DNA from: Photobacterium sp. TLY01
GTDB lineage: Bacteria > Pseudomonadota > Gammaproteobacteria > Enterobacterales > Vibrionaceae
DNA length: 64,000 nucleotides
NCBI RefSeq assembly: GCF_021432065.1
Contig: NZ_CP090364.1
Span: forward strand, 2,556,601-2,620,600
Direction: 5' to 3'
The notes under the pieces were generated by a model. The model was given only the letters and a program-made list of their open reading frames with translations, was not told the origin of the DNA and ran no database searches. Below, in pieces: positions 49,987 to 64,000 of this stretch (position 1 is its first letter; each line of letters opens with the position of its first letter). The position numbers and the translations under genes are program-made.

Positions 49987-50018
49987 GCCTGCATTGACAA
50001 TTAGTAACCAATACAGGC
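49987..50018. repeat. Inverted repeat upstream of trpR
   Basis: GCCTGCATTG (49987-49996) and CAATACAGGC (50009-50018), 10-bp arms with one mismatched pair and a 12-bp centre ACAATTAGTAAC. It ends 18 bp from the trpR start and may be an operator or a leader hairpin. Confidence 0.45.
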
Positions 50019-50085
50019 GTATGAACTCTGCCCGGATTCTACCCCGAACCACAGCCTTGCACCAAACGTATAGCCGCAGTTTGTC

Positions 50086-52023
50086 TCAATACTTGGCGTT
50101 CAGTTCCTCTGTGGTCAGCAATTGGACCGGCTGATTGGTCAGCTTGTCGTAGTAGACCTCAAACATCAGCACATTCTGGACATAACCGCGCGTCTCACCG
50201 AAAGGAATGGTTTCCATGAAAGCAAAGACATCCAGCTTGCCGTCGCTGATTTTACGCCAGCTGGTAACTCTGCCCGGACCGGCATTGTAGGCCGAGAAAG
50301 CAAAAATACGGTTGTTGTCGTAACGCTCCAGCATCATTTTCAGATAGCCGCTGCCCAGCCTGATATTGACCTCTGGCTCAAAAAGACTGCTGCTGCCCGC
50401 GTATTTATAGTTCAGCTTACCTGCGGTTTCTTTGGCTGTGGCGGGCATCAGTTGCATCAGACCGCGGGCACCGACCGGCGACATCGCCTGTGGATTCAGT
50501 GCACTTTCCTGACGCGCCAGCGCCATCATAGTCGTCACAGAAAGCTCACGCTGCTGACCGAATGACTTGAAGGTCTCAGCAAAGGCCAGCGGGAAACGTA
50601 ACGACAGGTGCTCCCACATCCGGCCATAAATCGTGGCCTGCACCGTCAGATGGTGCCAGTTTTTCTTATCTGCGTAACCAGCCAGCGGCCAGATAGCTTT
50701 CGGCTCGAGATCTTTCATCAGATACCACCACTCCAGGTTGGCATCAAACACCTTATCCTGGGCGATCATTTCCTCAATCCGCTTTAACGCCGGCAGATAA
50801 GGGGTCACGTCCTGCTCTTTTTCATTCAGGGATTCCACCGGAAAATCGATCACTTCACCGAGAACCGTAGCGGCCGCGGCACTGTAAAAGTTCCGCTCAC
50901 CCAGCAATTGCTGATATTTCGGCTTGGCAACCACAGGATCGGTTTTGGCCAGCAAATGCGCCTGCCAGAACTTCCAGCGCAGCGTGTTCTGCTCTTCCGC
51001 CGAGAGTTGCGGGATCCATGCCTGCGCTTCGGTCCAATTACCTTCACGAAGGGCCAGCCGGATGCGTCGTCCAATTAAATCATCATCACTGCTTTTACGC
51101 AGGATGGCATCGCGCCAGCGGATCAGATCCGCGTCCTCAGCATCCATCAGTCGTGACGCCGTATAATCCGCCAGTGACTGCTTCTGTGCTTTATCCAGCT
51201 TTTGCCCGTCCGCAACCCGCTCTAACTGGCGCAAGGCTTCTTCGGTATTCACCCGTACCAGACGCTTGTAGGCCGCCACCGTCAATTGCCGGTTATAGTC
51301 CGTGACTTTGCTTTTTTTTGCAAAGTCTGCCACACCCTGAGGTTTGGCAAACAGCGCGAGCAACGTATCGCCTTCTTTTCTGGCGTTCCCTGTCAGCTGT
51401 TTATCGAGATATTTCAGCAGCCCCTGATTGCCGGCTTCAAACACCAGCAGCATCCGATCCAGAATCAGCTGATTGGTACGCTTTCCTGCTTTTGCCCAGG
51501 CATCCAGCATGGGATCACAATCGTCGTCAAGCGACTGGCCGGTCAGCCAGAGTGACTGCGCGCCCTGCCAGGCTTCATTCTTGCGGCCCACTTTGCTCAG
51601 CGCCAGATAATACTGGCACTGATAACTTTCTCTGAACGGCGGCTCCGTCTGAAAGGTCACCAGATCCTGCCAGCGATTCGCCTCTGCCAGCACATCCTGA
51701 TAGGCATACCCCAGCTTGATGGTAAAAGGCAGATCCTGATGCTTTTTGATGAATGCGCTCACTTCGGCTGGGGAGCGCTTTTCCAGATCATCCTGAAACT
51801 GGCGATAATCGAGATATGGGGTCAGCGGATAGTCATTGAGCCTTGCACGATAGCGCTGATAAGCCGACTCATCCTTGCGTTCCAGCGCATCTTTCGCGGC
51901 TTCATACCATTCTCTCTGCTCTTCCAGCGAGGCGGCCTGTGCCACGCTTCCTCCCAACAGCACCCAGACTCCCAGGCCCAGAATCCAACGACTACAACGG
52001 TGCATCACGGCTTCAGACTGCAT
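50086..52023 (-). CDS. slt: Soluble lytic murein transglycosylase
   Basis: 645 aa from ATG 52023, with GGAAAGAG just upstream; a later ATG (MHRCSRW) is also possible. The signal peptide is WILGLGVWVLLGGSVAQA. A long alpha-helical U-domain follows, then the C-terminal lysozyme-like domain with catalytic Glu in ARQESALNPQAMSPVGA and the motifs GLMQLMP and FAFSAYNAGPGRV. In the periplasm it cleaves peptidoglycan to 1,6-anhydro products. Size fits Slt70. Confidence 0.95.
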   Translation of the reverse strand: MQSEAVMHRCSRWILGLGVWVLLGGSVAQAASLEEQREWYEAAKDALERKDESAYQRYRARLNDYPLTPYLDYRQFQDDLEKRSPAEVSAFIKKHQDLPFTIKLGYAYQDVLAEANRWQDLVTFQTEPPFRESYQCQYYLALSKVGRKNEAWQGAQSLWLTGQSLDDDCDPMLDAWAKAGKRTNQLILDRMLLVFEAGNQGLLKYLDKQLTGNARKEGDTLLALFAKPQGVADFAKKSKVTDYNRQLTVAAYKRLVRVNTEEALRQLERVADGQKLDKAQKQSLADYTASRLMDAEDADLIRWRDAILRKSSDDDLIGRRIRLALREGNWTEAQAWIPQLSAEEQNTLRWKFWQAHLLAKTDPVVAKPKYQQLLGERNFYSAAAATVLGEVIDFPVESLNEKEQDVTPYLPALKRIEEMIAQDKVFDANLEWWYLMKDLEPKAIWPLAGYADKKNWHHLTVQATIYGRMWEHLSLRFPLAFAETFKSFGQQRELSVTTMMALARQESALNPQAMSPVGARGLMQLMPATAKETAGKLNYKYAGSSSLFEPEVNIRLGSGYLKMMLERYDNNRIFAFSAYNAGPGRVTSWRKISDGKLDVFAFMETIPFGETRGYVQNVLMFEVYYDKLTNQPVQLLTTEELNAKY

Positions 52024-52264
52024 ATATACTCTTTCCGGCTCCAGCTTTACTGAGATTAAAATCAGCACGTTTCATTCACACTGTCATCCTAACGTCCCAT
52101 CCCTGCATCCACGTCAGCCCTGGGTCAGGCTCAGGTCAATAACGAAAATCTGCGGTGAAGGGCATGTATTCATCTTAACCGTCATTGTGAGACATTGCTG
52201 TTAAACTTAGGGCCAGAATGGTTAAAATACCCCTTTCTCCAATCATTAGAGATGACCTACAGAA

Positions 52265-53932
52265 ATGGCTGAATACGTCTATACCATGTCGCGAGTGAGC
52301 AAAGTTGTGCCACCTAAGCGACAGATTCTGAAAGATATTTCATTAAGTTTCTTCCCTGGCGCCAAAATCGGTGTTCTGGGCCTGAACGGTTCCGGTAAAT
52401 CCACCCTGCTGCGCATCATGGCGGGTATCGATACCGATATCGAAGGGGAAGCCCGCCCGCAACCGGGTCTGAATGTCGGTTATCTGCCGCAGGAACCGGT
52501 ACTGGACGAAAGCAAGACAGTACGTGAAGTGGTTGAAGAAGCCGTCTCCGATGTCAAAAACGCCCTGACTCGCCTGGATGCCGTCTATGCGGCTTACGCT
52601 GAGCCGGATGCCGATTTCGATGCCCTTGCCAAAGAGCAGGGTGAGCTGGAAGCCCTGATTCAGGCCAAAGATGGCCACAATCTGGACAACACACTGGAGC
52701 GTGCTGCAGATGCACTGCGCTTGCCGGAGTGGGACGCTCAGATCAAATTCTTGTCGGGGGGCGAACGCCGCCGCGTGGCGATCTGCCGCCTGCTGCTGGA
52801 ACAGCCTGACATGCTGCTGCTCGACGAACCGACCAACCACCTGGATGCCGAATCTGTGGGCTGGCTGGAACGTTTCTTAGTTGATTACACTGGGACTGTG
52901 GTCGCCATCACGCACGACCGTTACTTCCTGGACAACGCCGCCGGCTGGATTCTGGAACTGGACCGTGGTGAAGGGATTCCATGGCAGGGCAACTATACCT
53001 CCTGGCTGGAGCAGAAAGACGCCCGTCTGAAACAGGAAGCCTCTCAGGAGAAAGCGCGTCAGAAAACCATTGAGAAAGAGCTGGAGTGGGTTCGTCAAAA
53101 CCCGAAAGGTCGTCAGGCCAAATCCAAAGCTCGTATGGCCCGTTTTGAAGAGCTGAACACCACAGATCACCAGAAACGTAACGAAACCAACGAGCTGTTC
53201 ATCCCGCCGGGTGATCGTCTGGGCGACAAGGTGATCGAAGTCAACGGCCTGACCAAATCCTTTGGTGACCGTGTGCTGATCGACAACCTGTCTTTCAGCA
53301 TGCCAAAAGGTGCCATCGTCGGCATCATCGGTGCCAACGGTGCCGGTAAGTCAACCCTGTTCAAGATGCTGAGCGGCTCTGAGCAGCCCGATGCAGGCAC
53401 AATCGAGCTGGGTGAGACCGTCAAACTGGCCTCTGTCGAGCAGTTCCGCGACAGCATGAATGATAACAACACTGTGTATCAGGAAATCTCTGAAGGCAAC
53501 GATGTGATTCGCATCAACAACTTCGAGATTCAGGCGCGTGCTTACGTGTCCCGCTTTAACTTCCGGGGCAGCGATCAGCAGAAACGCATTGGCGAACTGT
53601 CTGGTGGTGAACGAAACCGTGTCCACTTGGCAAAACTGCTCAAAGCCGGCGGCAACGTGCTGCTGCTCGATGAACCGACCAACGACCTGGACGTCGAGAC
53701 TCTGCGTGCGTTGGAAGAAGCGCTGCTGGAATTCCCGGGCTGCGCCATGGTGATTTCGCACGACCGCTGGTTCCTGGACCGTATCGCAACGCACATTCTC
53801 GACTACCGCGATGAAGGCCAGGTGAATTTCTTCGAAGGTAACTACAGCGAGTATACCGACTGGCTGAAGAAAACACTGGGCGCGCAGGCTGCAGAGCCGC
53901 ACCGGATTAAGTACAAGCGTATTGCCAAATAA
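52265..53932 (+). CDS. ettA: Energy-dependent translational throttle protein EttA
   Basis: A 555-aa ABC-F ATPase with two nucleotide-binding domains. Walker A is GLNGSGKST and GANGAGKST, signatures LSGGERRRVAI and LSGGERNRVHL, Walker B LLLDEPTNHLDA and LLLDEPTNDLDV. The Arm segment and the P-site tRNA interaction linker (RQKTIEKELEWVRQNPKGRQAKSKAR) lie between and after the domains. It binds the ribosomal E site and gates early elongation according to the ATP/ADP ratio. It is divergent from slt and has its own terminator. Confidence 0.97.
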   Translation: MAEYVYTMSRVSKVVPPKRQILKDISLSFFPGAKIGVLGLNGSGKSTLLRIMAGIDTDIEGEARPQPGLNVGYLPQEPVLDESKTVREVVEEAVSDVKNALTRLDAVYAAYAEPDADFDALAKEQGELEALIQAKDGHNLDNTLERAADALRLPEWDAQIKFLSGGERRRVAICRLLLEQPDMLLLDEPTNHLDAESVGWLERFLVDYTGTVVAITHDRYFLDNAAGWILELDRGEGIPWQGNYTSWLEQKDARLKQEASQEKARQKTIEKELEWVRQNPKGRQAKSKARMARFEELNTTDHQKRNETNELFIPPGDRLGDKVIEVNGLTKSFGDRVLIDNLSFSMPKGAIVGIIGANGAGKSTLFKMLSGSEQPDAGTIELGETVKLASVEQFRDSMNDNNTVYQEISEGNDVIRINNFEIQARAYVSRFNFRGSDQQKRIGELSGGERNRVHLAKLLKAGGNVLLLDEPTNDLDVETLRALEEALLEFPGCAMVISHDRWFLDRIATHILDYRDEGQVNFFEGNYSEYTDWLKKTLGAQAAEPHRIKYKRIAK

Positions 53933-53964
53933 GTCCATCGGACAGATGTGCAATCACGGAACTC

Positions 53965-53989
53965 AGGCTGCCCTTTGGGCAGCCTTTTT
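53965..53989 (+). terminator. Terminator after ettA
   Basis: Perfect 9-bp stem AGGCTGCCC/GGGCAGCCT with a TTT loop, then T5. Confidence 0.9.
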
Positions 53990-54197
53990 ATTGCGCGATT
54001 ACTTAATAAGCAAATCATCAAAGTCGCCTGTTTCATCTGATTCGGGGCTAATTCTGCACAGGGTCAATCGCATCCCGATTTCCCAGTGCAGCTGCAGTTC
54101 TGCAAACCGATATCGCGTCAACATAGAAAAAACAGACCCCAAAAGGCCAACAGACCCTAAACTCGACAATATAGGCTCATACAGGTAATCACAGACT

Positions 54198-54563
54198 ATG
54201 AACGAAAGACGCCAGTTTATCCGTATTGTTTATCAGGCTCCGGCGCTGGTGCGTCAGGCTCAGTCCCACTGGTTTGCTGATGTTCGGGATATCTCGCTGC
54301 ATGGTATTCTGCTCAGCCGGCCTGAACGCTGGCAGCCGGATGACAAGGCCCCGTTTGAAGTCGATGTCACCCTGCACGATACAGAAATTCACATGACCAT
54401 GATCACTGAGCTGGTCGCCCATGACAGTGACTGTCTGCGGATGAAAATCGTGAATATTGATATCGACAGTATTTCACACCTGCGCCGCCTGATTGAGCTC
54501 AACGTAGGGGACGACGAACTGCTTTATCGCGAACTGGCACTTCTTGCCGATCTTGCAGACTGA
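54198..54563 (+). CDS. Small PilZ-domain c-di-GMP receptor (PlzA-like)
   Basis: A 121-aa single PilZ domain. The c-di-GMP motifs are RxxxR at residues 5-9 (RQFIR) and DxSxxG at 31-36 (DISLHG). It has no output domain, so it probably acts by protein contact or senses c-di-GMP for motility or biofilm control. A small PilZ gene near slt and yjjX recalls V. cholerae PlzA (from memory of gene order). Confidence 0.87.
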   Translation: MNERRQFIRIVYQAPALVRQAQSHWFADVRDISLHGILLSRPERWQPDDKAPFEVDVTLHDTEIHMTMITELVAHDSDCLRMKIVNIDIDSISHLRRLIELNVGDDELLYRELALLADLAD

Positions 54564-54638
54564 AGCGGAGCGCTCAGCGATTCCGCCCGGAGAGAACCTC
54601 ACGCAGAAAAGCTCGCGGTTGGCCCGCCCGCGCCATGT

Positions 54639-54761
54639 TCAGGCAAGCACAGCCTGGCAGGGTTTCAGATAACGGCACTCACCACAGCATTCCGCTGTTT
54701 CAAGCGTTTCTGTGCCGATCTCATTGCCTATCACGTTATTCACATCATCATTCATGTTCAT
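54639..54761 (-). CDS. Possible small Cys-rich peptide, RiPP-precursor-like
   Basis: A 40-aa frame starting at the minus-strand ATG near 54760 (MNMNDDVNNVIG...), acidic for about 24 residues, then a Cys-rich end CCGECRYLKPCQAVLA. An in-frame start 23 codons upstream also exists. The Shine-Dalgarno is weak (CAGG at about -14). The leader/core look and the position next to the Lrp-regulated oxidase/ATP-grasp cluster make it a candidate precursor or small metal-binding peptide, but it could be fortuitous. It is the only coding candidate in the 54564-54906 gap. Confidence 0.3.
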   Translation of the reverse strand: MNMNDDVNNVIGNEIGTETLETAECCGECRYLKPCQAVLA

Positions 54762-54906
54762 ATTGACAAGATACCTGAGGTGTATGGTAAGTATGCAGTT
54801 GCTTATCAAAAAAGCAGAAAAAATATCCATCTAAAAACAGAATATAATTAAAAGAATCTTCTGTTTCCTGAGAATCAAAAAGTCACCAGGCTAGTTAGTA
54901 ACCATC

Positions 54907-55344
54907 ATGAATTTAGATAAAGTGGACATGAAAATCATTGAGTTATTGAGAGATAACTCAAGAGAAAGCATCCAGAAAATTGCAGAACAGGTCAACCTCT
55001 CACGCAGTGCCGTAGACAAAAGAATACAAACCCTGATCCAGGAGAACATCATCACCGGCTTCACTATCAGTACTTGCTTTGATCAGCGCTTATCCCCTTC
55101 TGATGATATTCATTCTTACCTGTTGGTCAAATCCGGAAGCCTAGACTGTAAACAGATTTTCAAACACCTCAAAAGTGCTGGCTATGATTTTCACTTTGAA
55201 TCTATCTATGGCGAATTTGACTGCCTGATCCGAGTCAACAGCACCCGACTGCCATTACTGTATGAAATCAAAAAATGCATCGTCGAAATGGGTGGCATTG
55301 AGTCCATCCATATTCTTCCCGTCTTAGACATTAAACACGAGTAA
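54907..55344 (+). CDS. AsnC/Lrp-family transcriptional regulator
   Basis: A 145-aa protein. The N-terminal winged HTH reads DMKIIELLRDNSRESIQKIAEQV, then LSRSAVDKRIQTLIQENIITGF. The C-terminal half is a RAM-type ligand domain (SYLLVKSG..., YGEFDCLIRVNS). Lrp-type proteins usually sense amino acids. It converges with the six-gene oxidase/ATP-grasp operon and is probably its regulator, responding to the amino-acid substrate or product (inference). No strong ribosome site is seen. Confidence 0.9.
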   Translation: MNLDKVDMKIIELLRDNSRESIQKIAEQVNLSRSAVDKRIQTLIQENIITGFTISTCFDQRLSPSDDIHSYLLVKSGSLDCKQIFKHLKSAGYDFHFESIYGEFDCLIRVNSTRLPLLYEIKKCIVEMGGIESIHILPVLDIKHE

Positions 55345-55366
55345 AGGGGCTGAACAGCCCCCTATT
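55345..55366. terminator. Hairpin between convergent genes
   Basis: GGGGCT/AGCCCC stem (55346-55351, 55356-55361) with short T-rich flanks on both strands. It separates the regulator and the deacylase gene. Confidence 0.65.
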
Positions 55367-55852
55367 TTAACTCGCGTAAAAGTACATCTCATTGTTCAGG
55401 CTTTCAAAGACACTGACCAGCACTTCAGATTCAACAATAAATGTGTAACTGGGATCAGCTGGCGTAAACATCACTTCTTTATGATCCAATAAAGAGACAT
55501 CTAAAATAATCGGGATCGAGGGTTCTAAGACAAAAGGACATAAAGCACCGGGAATACAGCCGGTCATGGTTTCCATTTCTTCGTTGTTGCAGATAGACAC
55601 TCGCTCGCCAATGACTTCACGAATCTTCTTCTGATCGAAACGGTTTTCTTTATGGGTCACAAACACACAATAGCCGCCGCTTTTACGTTTCAGAAATAAG
55701 CTTTTACTGGGAGCTGCAGTCCAGCCTAACTCCTGCGAGACTTTCAGATCAGTGTCGTAATCCAGGATAGGTTCATGTTTATACGAACGATAATCCAGAT
55801 TTAACGCTTCAAACAACTTCACATTGTGACTATATAAAGTAGAAATATTCAT
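55367..55852 (-). CDS. YbaK/ProX-type aminoacyl-tRNA deacylase
   Basis: A 161-aa single-domain protein of the YbaK/ProXp family of trans-editing enzymes, which hydrolyse mischarged tRNA such as Ala- or Cys-tRNA(Pro). The probable catalytic Lys is K50 in PSKSLFLKRK, and the GxxPGxxxPF pocket loop is at 98-107. AAGG precedes the ATG. It is the last gene of an operon with an oxidase and an ATP-grasp ligase, which is unusual for this family. A role in protecting translation from an amino-acid analogue made by the operon is a reasonable inference. Confidence 0.85.
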   Translation of the reverse strand: MNISTLYSHNVKLFEALNLDYRSYKHEPILDYDTDLKVSQELGWTAAPSKSLFLKRKSGGYCVFVTHKENRFDQKKIREVIGERVSICNNEEMETMTGCIPGALCPFVLEPSIPIILDVSLLDHKEVMFTPADPSYTFIVESEVLVSVFESLNNEMYFYAS

Positions 55853-55859
55853 AATTACC

Positions 55860-56144
55860 TTAAGCTAACTCAACCTCAGAATCCCTGACTAAAGTACACT
55901 GGCACAAGAGTCTGTATTCACTCGGACATAAAGCCAGTATCTCTAACGTGCCTTTTTCGCCCTCATGGACTTCACCAAGATGCGCAATATTCGTAACCGG
56001 TTTAACCGCACAAGAACCACAGATGCCACGCATGCAATTAAATGGAACACTCCTGGGTCCGTCAAACTCAAATAAGTCTGAAACGGGTGTCCCGGCTTCT
56101 GCTTCTATTGTTTCATCTGTATCTTTAATGATTAACTTAGGCAC
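55860..56144 (-). CDS. Plant-type [2Fe-2S] ferredoxin
   Basis: A 94-aa protein with cluster ligands C37, C42, C45 and C81 (CMRGICGSC ... LLCQC). It starts at GTG 56144, inside the last codons of the ATP-grasp gene (8-bp overlap), so translation is coupled. It probably donates electrons to the diiron oxidase of the same operon, in parallel with or after the Rieske protein. Confidence 0.92.
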   Translation of the reverse strand: MPKLIIKDTDETIEAEAGTPVSDLFEFDGPRSVPFNCMRGICGSCAVKPVTNIAHLGEVHEGEKGTLEILALCPSEYRLLCQCTLVRDSEVELA

Positions 56145-57375
56145 CGATCAACTCCCTGTGAAATACACCATTCAGAATATGTTCAACTTCCTGAATGTCA
56201 GACTCTAAGTCAAAGGCATTATCGTTCGCTAACCACACCAGACACGGACAGGTAAATAAGTCTTCCGTCGCTGGCAGTGCTTGCCCCTCCTTCGCCGTAA
56301 CAAAATAGTCAATCAGCGATGCGATGCGTCGTAATTTCCCATCACTGACAGGATCGACACCAGAAAAATTGGCCGCGTGTTTATTGACATGGAAATACAC
56401 TCTTCCCTGTTTGATGAGTTTTGAGTCTTGTTCCGGGACTCGCTTTTCTGCCACCAGTAACGTCAACGCATCCAGTAAGCTTGGCGAATAACAGCTTTCA
56501 AATAGGGATGGAGCCACACCGCCGTGAATCCGCGTTGCTGCTTCAATCATGACCGGACCTTGTGACGGACTCAGCATCAGTTCCATGTGCACAAGCCCGT
56601 AGCGGATATCCAGCGCTCGGGTCGCTGCAACAGCGTACGCGCGGATTGGTGCCAACTCAGGGTCATCAGGATCCAGAAGTTCCAGTCGATTATAAACAAA
56701 CGGATTATCACCAGACTGACCCTTCACGTATTTACAAATGGCCACTAAAGCGAGTTGGTCTCCATTGACTATCAGATCTAAAACATACTCCTCGCCTTCA
56801 ATAAACTCCTGGACCAGAAACTGATCGTTTCTTTTTCCGGTGCTATTAATTTTCCCCCAGGGCAGCGAAGATATTTTATTAATGACCTCATCTCTGCTAT
56901 TGCAGAAGTAGACGTTTTCAGAACCTGCAGAGTTCACAGGTTTGATGATGTACTTACTGCATTTCATATCATTGAGTTCACTCAGCCCTTTTCCATCCAT
57001 ATCGACCAGGAAGGTCTGAATGTAGGCTAAGCCATGCTGCTTCAATGCTTCCTGCATTTCATCTTTATTTCTGCGCAACCCGGTCGTCGATGGCGAGTTG
57101 CCCGGCAATCCCAATGCACTGGCGAGCTTATCTGCCAGCTCAACACCGAGTTCAGATCCGGCAATCACGGCATCATAATGCTCATTTTTCAACGCATCGA
57201 GACTGAAACCGGAAACATTCTGATCATAATTATCGATGTGAATCGTATCCAGCATGCCTTTCGGATCATGCTCCGAATCAAAATACACATCGCATCGAAT
57301 ATAATTGTCCTGCAATTTAGGTCTGATCATTTTTCCGCTGGATGCAGGATTTACTATCAGTACTTTACTTTTCAT
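56137..57375 (-). CDS. ATP-grasp ligase (amino-acid ligase-like)
   Basis: 412 aa from ATG 57375, with GGAAGG 5 bp upstream; GTG 57381 is an alternative. An N-terminal Rossmann-like part is followed by the ATP-grasp fold: IIKPVNSAGSENV, FLVQEFIEGEEYVLDLIVNG, and a metal/ATP site MIEAATRIHGG (EAxxRxxGG). It is similar in layout to L-amino-acid alpha-ligases (BacD/YwfE type) that form dipeptides. The substrate is unknown. It overlaps the MFS gene end by 11 bp and the ferredoxin start by 8 bp. Confidence 0.88.
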   Translation of the reverse strand: MKSKVLIVNPASSGKMIRPKLQDNYIRCDVYFDSEHDPKGMLDTIHIDNYDQNVSGFSLDALKNEHYDAVIAGSELGVELADKLASALGLPGNSPSTTGLRRNKDEMQEALKQHGLAYIQTFLVDMDGKGLSELNDMKCSKYIIKPVNSAGSENVYFCNSRDEVINKISSLPWGKINSTGKRNDQFLVQEFIEGEEYVLDLIVNGDQLALVAICKYVKGQSGDNPFVYNRLELLDPDDPELAPIRAYAVAATRALDIRYGLVHMELMLSPSQGPVMIEAATRIHGGVAPSLFESCYSPSLLDALTLLVAEKRVPEQDSKLIKQGRVYFHVNKHAANFSGVDPVSDGKLRRIASLIDYFVTAKEGQALPATEDLFTCPCLVWLANDNAFDLESDIQEVEHILNGVFHRELIGA

Positions 57376-58537
57376 ATGCACCTTCCAATGTGACTGTTTT
57401 TTTAGTTCGGGTTAACAGCAGAATAACGACAGCAGAGAAAACACCCACCAATATCAGCGATACACCATAAGCTTGGCTTGAGAATGAAAAATACGTTAAG
57501 CCCATAGTCACCAGCATTGGAATGGTGCCGGATACAATATAAAACAAATAATTAGAATGACTGATGGCGTTATTGACATCGCTCTGATCAGCATCAGATT
57601 TCAAAATTTCTGTTCTTGATGTAATTCTGACAGAATTAACCGCATAGCCAATACAGAAACAGAACAGCACGGAAAGATAAGGCATATCCATGAAAAACAG
57701 CCCGATATCCCCGACCAGTAACAGGACTGCGCTGAGTAAATAAACATGTTTATTCTGAGGAAGAAGCGCTGCACATAAGGCGCCTATCCCTGCCAACCCG
57801 GATGCAAATCCCAGAATATCAGGCCCCCACTCTCTGAACAGCTGATAATACACAGGCACAAAAGTATTGAAGGCACCAATGTGTAAGCCGGTTAACACCG
57901 ACAAGGTCACCTGGATAATAAAACGTTCTCTTTTCCCTGACAGCGCCTGCTGATCACTTTTTTCAGCGACGGCCTCTTCTTTATCCACATCAGAAACAAA
58001 CAGGTAAGAGACAGATAATAAGATAGACATCACGGCAATATAATAAATGAAGTTTTCAAACCCCATCGCTTTGAGATACCACCCGCCAAACAGCGCGCCA
58101 AAGAAAGCACCAAACTGAATGGTTGTCTGCAGGACTCTGGAGGCCTTCGAGGCTTCAATCAGTTTGCTTTTCACAAAACTGGAGTTTTTCACTTCAAAGG
58201 TATTGATACTGCAAACCATATTGCATGATGAGAAAACAGCAATCATAAAGATGATGTAAATCATACCCGTTGCATCAAAATATAAAACGGTCGCCATGCA
58301 AGCAAAGAAAACAGCCCTGAGTGTTGTGATTGTTGATTTCTTATAAAAGATATCTTTCTTTTGAATGATTTTGCTCAGTATGAAAGGTGTCACGGCACCA
58401 ATGCTGACAATCATCCCCATATAGACAGTCGAACTTGTTATTTCAAGTATTTTCCAGATCATGACAATTTGAATTGACATATCAAGAAAAACAGAAAATG
58501 CAAGCAATAGATACGTTTTTAATAAGGTACTATTCAT
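57365..58537 (-). CDS. MFS transporter of the oxidase/ATP-grasp operon
   Basis: A 390-aa protein with about 12 hydrophobic segments and a polar central loop (DKEEAVAEKSDQQALSGKRERF). GAAGGA precedes the ATG. Motif A is weak. It is embedded between the Rieske and ATP-grasp genes, so export of the operon's product is the natural guess. A role in import cannot be excluded. Confidence 0.85.
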   Translation of the reverse strand: MNSTLLKTYLLLAFSVFLDMSIQIVMIWKILEITSSTVYMGMIVSIGAVTPFILSKIIQKKDIFYKKSTITTLRAVFFACMATVLYFDATGMIYIIFMIAVFSSCNMVCSINTFEVKNSSFVKSKLIEASKASRVLQTTIQFGAFFGALFGGWYLKAMGFENFIYYIAVMSILLSVSYLFVSDVDKEEAVAEKSDQQALSGKRERFIIQVTLSVLTGLHIGAFNTFVPVYYQLFREWGPDILGFASGLAGIGALCAALLPQNKHVYLLSAVLLLVGDIGLFFMDMPYLSVLFCFCIGYAVNSVRITSRTEILKSDADQSDVNNAISHSNYLFYIVSGTIPMLVTMGLTYFSFSSQAYGVSLILVGVFSAVVILLLTRTKKTVTLEGAYEK

Positions 58538-58554
58538 TCCCTATTCCTTCATTA

Positions 58555-58860
58555 TTAACTTTCTGACCATATGCGATAGTTATCATTCGGCAACACCACA
58601 TGAATTAAATCTTTATTGGAAATCGCTGGCAGCGAACTTCTTTTGATACAATGCATGCTGATTCTGTTATCGTGCCAGGGACAAACAATTGCACCTGTTT
58701 TTTCGCATTGTTTACCTAAATGTAGCGGGCCACCGCGGTGTGGACATTCAGACGGCAAGACCCAAACTTTACCGTCATGCTCAACACGCTTAATGAAAAA
58801 CTTTTGGTCATTCACAGCAAGCCTGTTATTTTTTCTTGAATCAACAGAGACAACCGTCAT
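58555..58860 (-). CDS. Rieske [2Fe-2S] protein
   Basis: A 101-aa stand-alone Rieske domain. Ligands C39-x-H41 (CPHRGG) and C60-x2-H63 (CPWH) are complete. It starts at the base next to the oxidase stop. It likely passes electrons to the adjacent heme-oxygenase-like diiron enzyme. Confidence 0.92.
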   Translation of the reverse strand: MTVVSVDSRKNNRLAVNDQKFFIKRVEHDGKVWVLPSECPHRGGPLHLGKQCEKTGAIVCPWHDNRISMHCIKRSSLPAISNKDLIHVVLPNDNYRIWSES

Positions 58861-60186
58861 TTACGCCACCTCAATATGTTTCACTGAATAACGACATGTG
58901 TCTGAAGTAATTTTCGACAGATGCAGGATGCCTGACGGTATGATGATTTTATCTCCTGCCTTCATATGCACCACTTTATCGGGTGAGAAATAAAGATCTA
59001 ATTCTCCTTCATCAACCATGAATAACTCATCATTATTGTGGATATGCGATACCGACACCTCACCCAGGACTTCTTCAAATTTCACAGCACCGCTGACATC
59101 GTGATATTTTTTCGCTTTTGCGATCAACTCATCAAGCGAGTCGTGTACCTCGATATGACGGTACAACTCTTGATCAGCGACATCCTGCAGTGAGGCAAAC
59201 TCTTCAAATCCGGATAGAATATCCGGAATAATATGCTCACCATGTAATTCCACCAACGGAATGATAATTTTTTCTAATGCCATTCTGCCATGATGAATAT
59301 CAATATGACTGTGTTCATCAAAGTAGAGTGAGCTCACCCGACCTTGAAATACATCTTTGACAATTTTGGACTGGCTCTTGGTGGTAAATGCTAGCGTCGC
59401 TTCTGTATAATACAGCGCGCCAAGGTATTTAAAGAATCGACTGTGATTTTTAGAGATGTAATGAAAGTAATTAATGAGCGACAAACTGCCTGGCGTATAA
59501 AAATTCCAGTAGTAGTGAATCATTTCATTTAAGCCAACATCTTTCATCATCCCTTCAAAAATACTGGAGTGTTTTTTCTCGTGCACTCCGTATCCGTACT
59601 CGTCGATCAGCACTTTAAAGAGCTCAGAGGTCGCAGAACCATAATTTCCTAACACATTCCGCGCCATCGCTGACGCTTCTGACAAAAAATCCCCCGCACA
59701 TTGAATAAAGAAAAACCTAGCCGCTGACTCAGGATCTTTCGACCCTGTTATTTTTTTATAAAGTGTTGACTCACTGTTGGCAACATCTTTGATTTTTGTT
59801 TTGGTATATTGAATAAAATCCTGCAGGGTCCAGTGACCTGACACATTGATGCTTTTTTCCAGAGATGAAAAAGCAAGCTGTTCAAAAGAAGGCAATATTG
59901 CAGCTGCATTTTGATAGTTTTCGTCACAGTAAAATGTTTTGAATTCCTTCAGGTTTACAGCTTTACTAAATGGCAGGAACACCAGATCTAACTCATAGGC
60001 GTTTAAAATCGAACGCTGGATGAACAGGTTTTCATTCGAAGAGTATTTTTCCAGCGAAACGGGCTCAGATAAATCCAGTGCCTTTAAATCTTGCGGCCGA
60101 CAAGGACGTTGATACGGTGATTCCATGAAAACATCTTTCGGTGCATCTTTAAAATGAGAACAGCTCAGAAATGATTCAATTGCCAT
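58861..60186 (-). CDS. Heme-oxygenase-like diiron oxidase fused to a C-terminal cupin
   Basis: 441 aa from ATG 60186, with a perfect AGGAGG 6 bp upstream; the frame runs 24 codons further. Residues about 150-310 resemble the Haem_oxygenas_2/HDO family: DEYGYGVHEKKH (E196, H202/H206), a Glu at 262, and EHSHIDIHHGRM with H292/H294, D296 and H298 as candidate iron ligands. Residues about 370-441 form a cupin with H381, H383, E387 and H422. HDO enzymes oxidise amino or fatty acids (CADD, BesC, UndA, PolF types). I do not know this fused form. First gene of the operon; substrate unknown. Confidence 0.82.
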   Translation of the reverse strand: MAIESFLSCSHFKDAPKDVFMESPYQRPCRPQDLKALDLSEPVSLEKYSSNENLFIQRSILNAYELDLVFLPFSKAVNLKEFKTFYCDENYQNAAAILPSFEQLAFSSLEKSINVSGHWTLQDFIQYTKTKIKDVANSESTLYKKITGSKDPESAARFFFIQCAGDFLSEASAMARNVLGNYGSATSELFKVLIDEYGYGVHEKKHSSIFEGMMKDVGLNEMIHYYWNFYTPGSLSLINYFHYISKNHSRFFKYLGALYYTEATLAFTTKSQSKIVKDVFQGRVSSLYFDEHSHIDIHHGRMALEKIIIPLVELHGEHIIPDILSGFEEFASLQDVADQELYRHIEVHDSLDELIAKAKKYHDVSGAVKFEEVLGEVSVSHIHNNDELFMVDEGELDLYFSPDKVVHMKAGDKIIIPSGILHLSKITSDTCRYSVKHIEVA

Positions 60187-60273
60187 GTATGACCTCCTAT
60201 GTAATGAGGCAATTTTACTGAAGGGCGATTGAAAATATTTACTAAAGATAAAGGGCAATTCACTTTTTTCAGC

Positions 60274-60304
60274 GTGAAATTAACACCCAAAGTGTGAAAT
60301 TAAC
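60274..60304. promoter_or_regulatory. Phased direct repeat upstream of the oxidase operon
   Basis: GTGAAATTAAC occurs at 60274-60284 and 60294-60304, exactly 20 bp apart, about 90-120 bp before the oxidase ATG. Two-turn spacing suggests a regulator binding the same helix face, perhaps the Lrp-type protein. The rest of 60187-60473 shows no gene. Confidence 0.55.
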
Positions 60305-60473
60305 GACAGCGAATCGAACAAAGGGGGAGCTCTCTCGATAGCAGATGTATTTCGAGCGCATCACTCAGGCTGGGCGCTGGCTCCCTCTTCCGCGCCGGCG
60401 CTCAAAGCATTGAACCGGTTGCTGGCCTTGCGCGCAACAACCGGCTCAAACAGCAGAGTAAAGGCGTTGCTCG

Positions 60474-61865
60474 TCAGACGGCAACCCGTTCAAATGCGGC
60501 CAGCGCTTCTTGCAGATCCTCAACCGGCATGATCTCAATCCCGGGAAGTGAGCGGCTCGCATTGGCTTTTGGGATAATCGCACGGGTAAAGCCTTGCTTG
60601 GCCGCTTCCCGGATCCGCTCCACCCCGTTGGCGGACGGACGGATATCACCGTTCAGGCCAATTTCACCAAACACCAGCACATCTTGCGGGATCGGGGCGT
60701 TTTTGAAACTGGAGAAGATCGCCAGCAACACAGATAAATCCGCCGACGTTTCTTCAATCCGGATGCCCCCGACACAGTTTACAAAGATGTCCATGTCCGA
60801 CAGCATCACCCCGCCATGACGTGCCAGCACTGCAATGGACATCGCCAGCCGGTTGGAATCGTACCCGACGCTCAGGCGGCGCGGCACTTCAGTCATCGAC
60901 TGGTTACACAGCGCCTGAATCTCCACCAGCAGCGGACGGGTACCTTCCCAGAGCGTAGTGCAGACCGACCCGGCATGGTTTTTGTTCGAGCGGCTGAGAA
61001 ATATCGCAGACGGGTTTTTAACCTGCTTCATGCCGGTTTCTGTCATGGCAAAGAAACAGGATTCAGAATCGGCCCCGAAACGGTTCTTCGAGGTGCGTAA
61101 GACCCGGAATTTTTCATCCGACGTCGATGACAGGGCGAACAAGCCATCAACGATGTGGATCAGCTGCATCGGACCGGCCACATTCGAGTCTTTATTGATG
61201 TGGCCGACAATCATGAAAGTCACGCCTTCGGTCTTGGCAAAACGGGTCAGTGCCGCCGCCGATTCTTTGACCTGGCTCGGGCTCCCCGCCGCCGATTCAT
61301 TGTGCGCGACTGTCATGGTCTGGATCGAGTCAATAATCACGAAAGCGGCTTTCTGCTCAACCACGTGATTGAGGATCTGCTCGACCGAGGTTTCGGCCAC
61401 CACCTGTATTTTATCGATATTCGGTGTTGCCAGACGTTTGGCCCGCTGCGAAATCTGGTGAATGGATTCCTCACCGGATACATAAAGCGCCTGACGGGAT
61501 TCCGCGACCGCCCCGATGCTTTGCAGTAACAGGGTCGATTTACCGGCACCGGGATCCCCACAGAGCAGGAGCACAGAGCCCGGCACAATCCCGCCGCCCA
61601 GCACACGGTCAAGCTCGGAGATCCCCGAGCTGAAACGCGGTAAATCTTTACTTTCAACTTCCGACAACGTCTGCACTTTGGTCGACGAACCGGCATAGCT
61701 GCTGACCGCACCGCCACCACCTGCACCGCCCAGCGCAGATTTGGTTTTGGGGATCGTAAATTCAGTAATGGTATTCCAGGCGGCACACGCACTGCACTGG
61801 CCCTGCCAGCGTGGAAAATCGGCGCCGCAGTCACTGCAGACGTAAGCTCTCTTGGTTTTCGCCAT
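60474..61865 (-). CDS. radA: DNA repair protein RadA (Sms)
   Basis: A 463-aa branch-migration ATPase. The N-terminal zinc finger is CSDCGADFPRWQGQCSAC, Walker A GDPGAGKST, the RadA-specific KNRFG motif (SKNRFGADSES), and a C-terminal Lon-like domain with NGDIRPSANGVERIREA. It processes recombination intermediates with RecA. It is divergent from the PilZ gene. Confidence 0.97.
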   Translation of the reverse strand: MAKTKRAYVCSDCGADFPRWQGQCSACAAWNTITEFTIPKTKSALGGAGGGGAVSSYAGSSTKVQTLSEVESKDLPRFSSGISELDRVLGGGIVPGSVLLLCGDPGAGKSTLLLQSIGAVAESRQALYVSGEESIHQISQRAKRLATPNIDKIQVVAETSVEQILNHVVEQKAAFVIIDSIQTMTVAHNESAAGSPSQVKESAAALTRFAKTEGVTFMIVGHINKDSNVAGPMQLIHIVDGLFALSSTSDEKFRVLRTSKNRFGADSESCFFAMTETGMKQVKNPSAIFLSRSNKNHAGSVCTTLWEGTRPLLVEIQALCNQSMTEVPRRLSVGYDSNRLAMSIAVLARHGGVMLSDMDIFVNCVGGIRIEETSADLSVLLAIFSSFKNAPIPQDVLVFGEIGLNGDIRPSANGVERIREAAKQGFTRAIIPKANASRSLPGIEIMPVEDLQEALAAFERVAV

Positions 61866-62053
61866 TGTATCCCTTTTTCATCATCAAGCTGTGACCGAAA
61901 AGGGCCACTCAGTGCAGGTGCCAGCCAATCTGTGGCGAAGAAACAGACAGGACATGCGCCATGCCTGACTTTCCGCTTACAAGCTTATGACAATTCTTCG
62001 TTTTACTGCACAATAGGGATCATACCCGATAGAGACCTGTTGCTAAAACCACT

Positions 62054-64000
62054 ATGTTGCTGGATGAATACAAAGGACTGATAGAACAACTGCTCCCGGC
62101 TTATGACAGCGGAGATTTTAATGACTTGTTTCAGCACCTGACCGCGGATCTCAGTGGCCCGGTTCGCTTGCAGGTCAAAATGGAGCTCAACCGTCTGATG
62201 GCGCCGTGTCGTCAGCCGGTCGATTTACGCGGCAAAGTCAGCGGTGAGTGCCGTCCTTATGACATGCACGGGATGACGCACTGGCTGGATGACGTGGCCA
62301 TGAATGTCTATCGCCGCCGGATCAAAACCTATGGCGAACAATACCGGGTTGGCCTGTTTGAATCCCTGATGAATACCCGCAACAACTTCCGGGTCATGAA
62401 GCAGCAGGACACACCGGCGCCACCACCCGAGGCGCCGGCCGAAGCGCTGCCTTTTGGCGCCGAGCTGCTGCGCTTTGGTTACCACCTCAGCCGCAGCGAA
62501 CAACGCATTCAGATCACCACCCCGGTTGTGCTGACACTGCCCTATTCACAGGAAGTGAACGGCACCACATCGGATATATCGCCTTCAGGCGCACGCTTTC
62601 GGGTCTCTTCCGCATTCCGCTACCATATCGGACAGGAGGTCACCGCGTTTTTCCCCGAACTGGCCAAGCAGCTCAAAGACGAACGGCTGGTACAGGGGAT
62701 CCGTTACCGGATTCTGGGGGTCTCGCCCCATGCAGATAACGACAGCTATACCTGGCTGCGCCTGATGCTGATTGAATCCAGCGACGCGCTGAAAGATGCC
62801 ATTGAAGCCCGCCAGAAAATGGCGGCCAGTCGCTCGCGCCAGAACCACGAAGACAAAATCATTCAGTCGCGTACCCGGGGCTACGAGCACTGCTTCCTCA
62901 AGCATACCAGCAGCATCCCGCTGTTTTTTGCCGGTCATGAGCTGAAGTATTGCCTGCAGACCGAACATAACCGTCACCTGTGGGAGCACTGGCATGACGA
63001 ACGAAACCAGTCGGTGATCAATCATCTGCTGTCTGAAGATCGTATCCGCACGCTGGGCCAGGAAGGCCTGAGTCAGGGCAGCACTCTGATCTACAGTTTT
63101 ACCCATCAGCACGAAGGCAAAACCTATTTTTATTCCGCTGCCTTGCCTGAGATGAGCGTTGAGGAGCGGCAGTTGTTCTGGCAAATCGGGGCGACACGAG
63201 AAAGCTGGCGGGTTGTCCGCCTGACGCTTTACCCGATCAGCCAGGATGACAAAATCCAGCTGCAGGAAATTGCTCCTGAACTGCTGGAAACCCTCTCCAG
63301 CCTGACCCATATCGGGGTGTTACAGAATCTGACCAACATGGCAGGTCGCAATGACTACCGGCTGACAGATAAGCCGGCCCTGCCAAGCAAACATTTACAG
63401 ACCTTCCGTCACCCGCGAAACCCTGTTGCCGGCACCCACGCCATTTTCTTTGATCCCAAGCCGCAGCGCAGCGAATCTCGTTTTTTGTTCCGCACCCCGG
63501 TCTCCCTGCTGCAGCCCGGCACACAGGACCAGGAAGCCCGTATTCTCAGCGGCGCCAGCATCGATGTGTCCACCCGCGGCCTGAATCTCCGCCTGGCTGA
63601 ACCTCTGGATGCCAAACGGGGCGATGTGCTGAAAGTCACTTTCGATGAACTGCTGAAAATGGCTAAAGAGGCGCCGCTCAAACGGATTCCTTATCAGGTT
63701 GTCCGTTTGAGTCCCGACAGACGGAATGTGCAACTGGAAACCGGCCGGGGTGATGATGCCACCCGCAGCGAGCATTTCCTGCGACGTCTCATCAAGCACA
63801 ATGAAGAGCGACTACCTGTCAGTGAAGAAATCATGCCAGCCGGCCCACTGCTGCTGGCCATGCACCAGATGCTGCTGACACGGCTCAACAGTTTGCCCTT
63901 TTTCTGCGAGAAAATTGAGAATCAGGTGAAAGTGCGTGCCTTAGGTGCGAACCAGCCGCTGCCGCCGCTGGGTAAGCTGATGATGGAGCTGGGGGATGGC
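62054..64000 (+). CDS. PilZ-domain protein (PlzC-like), 3' end beyond the window
   Basis: The frame is open from ATG 62054 to the right edge (649 codons, no stop). An N-terminal helical region is followed by two PilZ-like segments: DISPSGARFRV near residue 175 and, after RFLFR (RxxxR), DVSTRGLNLRL near 500. It lacks transmembrane segments so far. Its position next to radA matches V. cholerae PlzC (VC2344) from memory. It is a c-di-GMP-linked protein of motility or virulence control. Confidence 0.8.
   Translation, partial: MLLDEYKGLIEQLLPAYDSGDFNDLFQHLTADLSGPVRLQVKMELNRLMAPCRQPVDLRGKVSGECRPYDMHGMTHWLDDVAMNVYRRRIKTYGEQYRVGLFESLMNTRNNFRVMKQQDTPAPPPEAPAEALPFGAELLRFGYHLSRSEQRIQITTPVVLTLPYSQEVNGTTSDISPSGARFRVSSAFRYHIGQEVTAFFPELAKQLKDERLVQGIRYRILGVSPHADNDSYTWLRLMLIESSDALKDAIEARQKMAASRSRQNHEDKIIQSRTRGYEHCFLKHTSSIPLFFAGHELKYCLQTEHNRHLWEHWHDERNQSVINHLLSEDRIRTLGQEGLSQGSTLIYSFTHQHEGKTYFYSAALPEMSVEERQLFWQIGATRESWRVVRLTLYPISQDDKIQLQEIAPELLETLSSLTHIGVLQNLTNMAGRNDYRLTDKPALPSKHLQTFRHPRNPVAGTHAIFFDPKPQRSESRFLFRTPVSLLQPGTQDQEARILSGASIDVSTRGLNLRLAEPLDAKRGDVLKVTFDELLKMAKEAPLKRIPYQVVRLSPDRRNVQLETGRGDDATRSEHFLRRLIKHNEERLPVSEEIMPAGPLLLAMHQMLLTRLNSLPFFCEKIENQVKVRALGANQPLPPLGKLMMELGDG

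Follow-up and report, generated by a model that had tools for sequence, protein, structure and literature searches.

What would a bacterium make with an operon that joins an iron-dependent oxidase to two small iron-sulfur proteins, a peptide ligase, a transporter and a protein that edits aminoacyl-tRNA? Such an operon lies at 54907-60304 of the stretch analysed here, 64,000 nucleotides of Photobacterium sp. TLY01 (contig NZ_CP090364.1, positions 2,556,601 to 2,620,600), referred to below as the window. Its oxidase almost certainly belongs to the SznF family. In our judgement the locus is fairly likely to be an SznF-type biosynthetic operon that dispenses with the arginine methyltransferase (PRMT): it would make an arginine dipeptide with an N-N bond, export it, and use tRNA deacylation as self-protection. 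The amino-acid chemistry, peptide ligation and export proposed in the initial annotation are supported by the gene context, the chemistry itself being a prediction.

The oxidase and its redox partners

Compared with SznF (6m9r), the 441-residue oxidase gave a phmmer E-value of 7e-97, with the match extending over residues 22-436. A Foldseek search with its AlphaFold2 model (pLDDT 90.7) returned SznF (6vzy_B) with a TM score of 0.92 over 443 columns at 40% identity, and the next folds were those of the N-oxygenases HrmI and RohS. Judged by sequence and model, the oxidase has the full architecture of SznF and the ligands of both its iron sites. All 11 metal or catalytic residues are kept, E170, E196, H206, E262, H292, D296 and H299 in the heme-oxygenase-like diiron oxidase (HDO) domain and H381, H383, H422 and Y433 in the cupin; this string (EEHEHDH/HHHY) is identical in 79 of 88 aligned rows. 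E170, presumably the equivalent of SznF E189, is the extra Glu of a 3H/4C ligand set. The other ten align with SznF residues reported to be essential, namely E215, H225, E281, H311, D315 and H318, and H407, H409, H448 and Y459 of the cupin (PMC11705231). The HDO-type iron motif and cupin first noticed from the sequence are thus both present, and the structure prediction proposed for the iron site gave an SznF-like fold with its ligands kept. The accompanying comparison with BesC, CADD and PolF had to be abandoned, the oxidase being a full-length SznF homologue: TMq was 0.92 for SznF and 0.41 for CADD, and BesC and PolF were not among the matches listed.

In SznF, methyl-arginine is N-hydroxylated twice, after which the cupin forms the nitrosourea (PMC13108848), and the family can yield diazeniumdiolates as well as nitrosoureas (PMC10849742). 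Since the oxidase is homologous to SznF over its full length, N-hydroxylation and N-N bond formation on a guanidine group are to be expected. It is very probably an N-oxygenase, and it probably also forms an N-N bond.

We examined the surroundings of SznF genes in 86 loci (the best 80 of 145 relatives and six of eight plasmid records), to which a Pseudomonas locus, L171, was added after it had been seen, giving 87. A Rieske protein was matched at 84 of the 86, with CxH/CxxH ligands in all 84. In the larger set the Rieske gene lies within 6 kb of SznF in 85/87 loci, and at most 250 bp downstream on the same strand in 80/87. Nearly every SznF has such a gene beside it, which makes the Rieske protein the strongest candidate for supplying electrons to the diiron site. 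A strict rule that every intact HDO domain comes with a Rieske gene does not hold, since L172 and L173 keep the HDO ligands without a Rieske match nearby, and L039 is likewise without one. In the window, both ligand sets, CxH-x(n)-CxxH of the Rieske protein and Cx4CxxC of the ferredoxin, are complete, as the initial annotation had stated. The plant-type ferredoxin, searched for with the window protein as sole seed, was matched in two of the 86 loci, those of Photobacterium salinisoli (L003) and P. arenosum (L004); in Photobacterium it is perhaps an additional reductant of the HDO domain. The word "Rieske" is absent from the main texts of PMC10849742 and PMC11705231, and we found no Rieske partner of SznF described in the accessible literature.

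Some relatives depart from this pattern. L172 and L173 (Pseudomonas) encode distant HDO-cupin proteins of 416 residues with degenerate cupin ligands, beside an aminotransferase gene; L172 also adjoins a protein with an adenylation (A) domain and a reductase. In the Acidobacteriota loci L065, L075 and L079, SznF relatives with PRMT and Rieske matches have partly lost the cupin ligands and retain those of the HDO domain, with Asp for Glu at one position, possibly allowing N-hydroxylation without N-N bond formation. Three rows of PRMT-containing loci with degenerate cupins were left out when the positions separating oxidases of PRMT-containing loci from those of loci with tRNA-editing genes were listed, and no link to the substrate was drawn from these positions.

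Gene order, ligase and transporter

All seven genes were confirmed in 54907-60304, and the domain of each was matched by Pfam:

54907-55344, plus strand: Lrp/AsnC regulator (PF13404, 1.4e-12)
55367-55852, minus strand: YbaK/ProXp-type aminoacyl-tRNA editing protein, 161 residues (PF04073, 3.3e-20; ProXp-ala 5vxb, 1.9e-7)
55860-56144, minus strand: plant-type [2Fe-2S] ferredoxin, 94 residues (PF00111, 9.5e-7; weak NCBIfam matches, YfaE/PaaE-like)
56137-57381, minus strand: ATP-grasp ligase of the L-amino-acid-ligase kind, 414 residues (PF13535, 6.4e-11; inner ATG at 57375 possible)
57365-58537, minus strand: major facilitator superfamily (MFS) transporter, 390 residues (PF07690, 4.8e-11)
58555-58860, minus strand: Rieske [2Fe-2S] ferredoxin, 101 residues (PF00355, 3e-9; CxH/CxxH ligands)
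58861-60186, minus strand: SznF-type HDO-cupin oxidase, 441 residues (N-terminal region, diiron heme-oxygenase-like domain and C-terminal mono-iron cupin)
60187-60304, minus strand: upstream region with a repeated TTAATTTCAC motif and a ribosome-binding site, conserved across three Photobacterium species in an alignment

The operon runs leftward from 60186 to 55367, and the ATG of the oxidase gene at 60186 is preceded by a GGAGG box, a good ribosome-binding site. The six minus-strand genes are packed as first described. Oxidase and Rieske genes abut with 0 bp between them, Rieske and MFS genes are 17 bp apart, ATP-grasp and ferredoxin genes overlap by 8 bp, and a 7 bp gap separates ferredoxin and YbaK genes. 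The 11 bp overlap given earlier for the MFS and ATP-grasp genes applies if the inner ATG is the ATP-grasp start, and becomes 17 bp with the longer ATP-grasp frame. The regulator that these genes were said to face is present, but it is convergent with the operon, tail-to-tail with 22 bp between the stops, and shares no promoter region with it. A related Lrp gene occurs in 27 of the 86 loci. Upstream of the oxidase, the TTAATTTCAC motif is a candidate operator. An Rfam scan of 50000-64000 gave nothing above gathering scores, and the promoter and terminator scans returned 15 hits against 11.8 expected and 5 against 5.2.

The initial annotation had proposed a neighbourhood search, and the genes were found to be kept together rather than grouped by coincidence. 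The order sznF-Rieske-MFS-ATP-grasp on one strand was present in 32/86 loci, by a hand count of seed matches rather than full gene calls, and these counts are not independent because many loci are close kin. They come from Photobacterium, Pseudomonas, Reinekea, Chitiniphilus, Jeongeupia, a Legionella species, Gloeothece and the gamma proteobacterium L18. The ATP-grasp protein shows full-length similarity to an L-amino acid ligase (PDB 30vh, 1.1e-43 over residues 7-398); its NCBIfam matches, PRK07206 (4.5e-71) and the dapdiamide A synthase DdaF (2.4e-39), are both below the curated cut-offs. MFS genes track the ligase, being present in 42 of the 65 loci with ATP-grasp and in one of the 22 without (a contig that ends soon after the MFS gene), a pattern in keeping with transport of the ligated product. 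The MFS protein is probably an exporter, and on balance we expect the product to be a dipeptide. Amino-acid transporters were found in 14/65 loci with ATP-grasp and 10/22 without, a difference (Fisher p 0.051) that was not used. LysE seeds matched 18 of 87 loci; since 15 of these contain PRMT, LysE is not special to loci with B3/4, the tRNA-editing domain considered below.

Two loci vary this theme. In Reinekea blandensis (L005, 8594-9901) a second ATP-grasp gene lies directly upstream of the oxidase, so two amino acids may be added. A Sulfitobacter metagenome-assembled genome (L047, 11426-15152) combines SznF with a 159-residue protein without a Pfam family, a pyridoxal phosphate (PLP) decarboxylase, Rieske and LysE, and may represent an amine variant.

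Could the product be a graminine-type diazeniumdiolate metallophore, with L-Arg converted to graminine as a metal ligand? Arg-derived graminine is made in pathways with SznF homologues (PMC10849742), and methylation would not be required. The locus itself speaks against this: no open reading frame of nonribosomal peptide synthetase (NRPS) size is present at 52000-63000, where none longer than 660 residues overlaps. In addition, the Tistrella enzyme, probably MobE, is 23.7% identical to the oxidase, differs at five of the seven HDO ligand positions and has no Rieske match. Used as a GrbD-type query in a phylum-wide sample, this protein hit 3 of 398 genomes, namely the window genome and two others that have the Pseudomonas operon. 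We consider a metallophore unlikely; free graminine may be a pathway intermediate.

tRNA editing, methylation and DNA repair

Why should the operon contain a tRNA-editing gene? In the 40 loci with PRMT, Ada or AlkA was matched at 23 and a tRNA-editing gene at none, whereas the 46 loci without PRMT have a tRNA-editing gene in 31 cases (29 B3/4, two YbaK) and Ada/AlkA in one (L036, weak, E 3e-5). Within 6 kb, and with L171 added, the corresponding figures are 20/41 and 0/41 for Ada/AlkA and editing in the presence of PRMT, against 1/46 and 31/46 for Ada/AlkA and editing in its absence. Where the four-gene order is kept, a tRNA-editing gene is present in 29/32 loci, with no PRMT and no Ada/AlkA match in any of the 32. 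The earlier suggestion that the operon guards translation therefore gains support from gene context. In a less biased check, in which 398 Pseudomonas genomes were searched with B3/4, a standalone gene was found in 22, inside the operon in 22/22, and the same 22 genomes gave an SznF match at E<1e-130. Three weaker SznF relatives in that sample had no B3/4 match: at L171, the sole PRMT-containing SznF locus there, Ada and PRMT are accompanied by an HhH-GPD glycosylase, and L172 and L173 have no PRMT, Ada or Rieske match.

The standalone B3/4 protein of Pseudomonas canavaninivorans deacylates canavanyl-tRNA(Arg) and spares arginyl-tRNA(Arg); a distant clostridial homologue also prevents canavanylation, and homoarginyl-tRNA is not edited, so that the activity is selective (PMC10018355). 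As a possible basis for this discrimination, the authors name the reduced pKa of the oxyguanidine (PMC10018355). By analogy, N-hydroxyarginine should share the lowered guanidine pKa. Against NCBIfam, six B3/4 copies gave weak PheT matches only. In Halovibrio the gene order is SznF-B3/4-Rieske-LysE. A Rahnella sikkimica plasmid (L100, 1076-6361) encodes a heme N-hydroxylase annotated as GntA, a short-chain dehydrogenase/reductase (SDR), an unknown protein, a 2Fe-2S protein, LysE, B3/4 and a MOSC-domain protein; with the GntA identity taken from annotation, this may be another operon for guanidine N-oxidation that includes a tRNA-editing gene. MOSC-domain genes also lie near SznF in two cyanobacteria (L032, 3172-4032; L083, 13336-14163), and we take them to be mARC/YcbX-like, possible N-hydroxyl reductases. 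SznF clusters on plasmids of Pantoea dispersa (L085) and Methylobacterium indicum (L087) have PRMT and Ada nearby, L087 also AlkA.

In Photobacterium the slot after ATP-grasp holds the ferredoxin and a YbaK/ProXp-type protein in place of B3/4, from another Pfam family. The window protein has PF04073, with the catalytic Lys of the SKSLFLK stretch, and not PF03483; the only PF03483 domain of this genome is in a 797-residue frame taken as PheT. Five PF04073 domains were found in the genome, and the other four do not match the operon protein at E 0.01. Related YbaK genes are common in Vibrionaceae without SznF, the listed non-operon homologues being 37-49% identical, which makes recruitment of a local editing gene plausible. 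The YbaK-type deacylase may serve tRNA(Arg) or tRNA(Pro).

These observations lead to the following proposal. With electrons from the Rieske protein, the HDO domain would N-hydroxylate a guanidine amino acid once or twice; the substrate is most likely unmethylated L-arginine, an assignment in which we place moderate confidence. The cupin would then rearrange the dihydroxy intermediate to an N-N product, N-hydroxy-N-nitroso-citrulline or a graminine-like amino acid, which the ATP-grasp ligase would couple to a second amino acid before export by the MFS protein. The hydroxylated or nitrosated arginine analogue could be loaded onto tRNA, and the deacylase, mostly B3/4 and YbaK-type in Photobacterium, would clear the mischarged tRNA. 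Self-protection is the likely role of this deacylation. The Lrp protein would sense an amino acid.

The tRNA-related gene might instead be biosynthetic, moving an aminoacyl group from tRNA to an N-hydroxy intermediate, the kind of step that VlmA performs with seryl-tRNA on the way to valanimycin (PMC11705231). The tight linkage of B3/4 to SznF would suit such a role. However, B3/4 and YbaK are editing hydrolase families, distinct from each other yet occupying the same slot. Moreover, an ATP-grasp ligase is already encoded in the operon, and L032 and L060 have B3/4 but no ATP-grasp match. We therefore think a transfer reaction improbable.

Several points weigh against the proposal as a whole. 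YbaK homologues occur in 125/325 Vibrionaceae genomes at E<=1e-25, three of them being the operon copies, and are thus widespread without SznF; characterised YbaK relatives act on tRNA(Pro) carrying small amino acids. No editing gene was detected in 15 of the 46 loci without PRMT (L029 and L035 are truncated where their contigs stop), and L069, L082 (Pseudomonas sp. MYb60) and L083 have the four-gene order with no editing gene found. The Ada/AlkA seeds came from clusters with PRMT and the B3/4 seeds from clusters without it, and the 22 Pseudomonas genomes overlap the named Pseudomonas loci. Loci with and without PRMT are mostly two SznF clades, so that independent contrasts are too few to test: on supported branches, three independent pairs contrast PRMT with editing and none differs in editing. 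That no PRMT homologue was found in the operon or in the window genome speaks for the proposal, but the genome search had no positive control from the same genome. In the two distant Pseudomonas proteins of L172 and L173 the HDO ligands are intact, yet no Rieske gene was matched near them. Finally, the product is a prediction, as are the substrate and the N-N bond. As for PRMT and Ada/AlkA, three pairs are available, changing in the same direction in 1.2 on average, and the fewest changes on the SznF tree (a quick tree with several long branches flagged) are 4 for PRMT, 5 for editing and 11 for Ada/AlkA.

A broader reading, which we advance tentatively, concerns an SznF branch in Pseudomonas, Photobacterium, Reinekea, Chitiniphilus and relatives: its products would be antimetabolites, forms of arginine that are unmethylated and either N-oxygenated or N-nitrosated, and most would leave the cell as dipeptides. 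A tRNA deacylase in the operon, from two families in the same slot, would protect this branch, and DNA-alkylation repair the methylating one; self-protection would thus follow the reactive group, with the Rieske protein as the physiological reductant of the family.

Distribution and comparison with known systems

Among 329 genomes of the family the oxidase was found in three, all Photobacterium. In P. salinisoli and P. arenosum the complete set of seven lies between radA and PilZ/ettA, and the proteins are 86-95% identical to those of the operon (oxidase 93-94%). In 52 Photobacterium genomes, 30 radA loci with 1.5-kb flanks were retrieved, the window's own included. Of the other 29, 26 have PilZ and/or EttA in the flank and no operon gene, two (L175, L177) have the oxidase, and one (L176) the MFS gene. 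The rarity of the oxidase in the family and the radA flanks without operon genes suggest that the operon between radA and PilZ is a recent import. Its G+C content is 42.1%, compared with 56.5% for radA and 55.5% for ettA. A close Photobacterium (G011/L204, RadA 98-99% identical) has a decayed operon: Lrp, MFS and ATP-grasp genes are whole (86-94% identical), oxidase and Rieske are unmatched, and ferredoxin and YbaK are matched over 49 and 32 residues only. Joint loss of ferredoxin, Rieske and deacylase with the oxidase is expected if they serve it, though one case is no proof. A weak second HDO-like match lies at 1733371-1734090 of the window genome (L002; 21% identity, E 2e-9, one TAA inside), about 3 kb from that genome's only B3/4 (PheT) gene.

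This distribution also bears on the idea that the main product of the operon is a nitric-oxide donor or signal, for instance in host association. The SznF product can release nitric oxide (PMC11705231), and a protein search found a 66%-identical oxidase in Aliivibrio fischeri. Nevertheless, the ligase, transporter and tRNA-editing gene better suit a stable amino acid or dipeptide, and with the oxidase in so few genomes of the family we give this idea little credence.

The view that no characterised pathway has this combination needs qualification. SznF enzymes and their mining are already known: 426 homologues have been collected, one network cluster comprises SznF and 135 proteins of szn-type clusters, and more than 400 cryptic biosynthetic gene clusters have been mined (PMC10849742). 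Rieske genes are, moreover, common across SznF loci. In the accessible literature we found no description of an SznF operon with a tRNA-editing gene and without PRMT, which does not establish absence from print; searches for a nitrosourea gene cluster with Rieske or a tRNA deacylase with hydroxyarginine returned none, and papers on SznF and tRNA, judged by their titles, included none about a deacylase. An orphan-looking operon yields a testable prediction, with L-Arg as substrate, Rieske as donor and an N-N or N-oxy arginine dipeptide as product class, and the specificity of the self-protection gene for tRNA(Arg) or tRNA(Pro) would report the product's identity. If correct, the resistance gene beside SznF would tell genome miners a DNA alkylator from a protein-synthesis antimetabolite, N-N chemistry would extend to a branch that many pseudomonads possess, and standalone B3/4 proteins would gain a second role besides canavanine.

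Among the closest known systems is the szn/stz streptozotocin cluster, whose SznF/StzF is the same multi-domain enzyme with all ligands kept, and many PRMT-containing relatives also have Rieske and ATP-grasp genes. The window operon differs in lacking an arginine methyltransferase (the SznE role) and Ada/AlkA and in having a tRNA-editing gene, Lrp and MFS, a contrast drawn from PRMT-containing loci. Despite the shared enzyme family, a streptozotocin-like route to a methyl-nitrosourea, with the methyltransferase encoded elsewhere in the genome, is very unlikely in view of the 32 four-gene loci without PRMT or Ada/AlkA, the repair genes at over half of the PRMT-containing loci and the PRMT not found in the window genome. 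The canavanyl-tRNA(Arg) deacylase CtdA has the same PF03483 domain as the B3/4 proteins of the sister operons and is likened to them by domain and arginine-analogue logic; the window protein is YbaK-type, and CtdA serves canavanine use rather than biosynthesis. The fluorothreonyl-tRNA deacylase of Streptomyces cattleya, with an AlaX-type domain, provides self-protection beside an antimetabolite pathway, that of fluorothreonine. The GrbD/MobE/ChmM graminine pathways share an arginine precursor and an SznF-like cupin (PMC10849742), but the window operon has no NRPS, and most HDO ligands are gone from the Tistrella relative. Clusters combining HDO and ATP-grasp proteins have been surveyed and comprise at least 25 kinds (PMC13185094). 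In one of them, the mangotoxin mbo cluster, the HDO protein MboA modifies an amino acid and the ATP-grasp ligases MboC/MboD build a small peptide (PMC13185094). MboA is an acetylenase with a 3H/3C ligand set (PMC13108848), whereas SznF and the window oxidase have 3H/4C.

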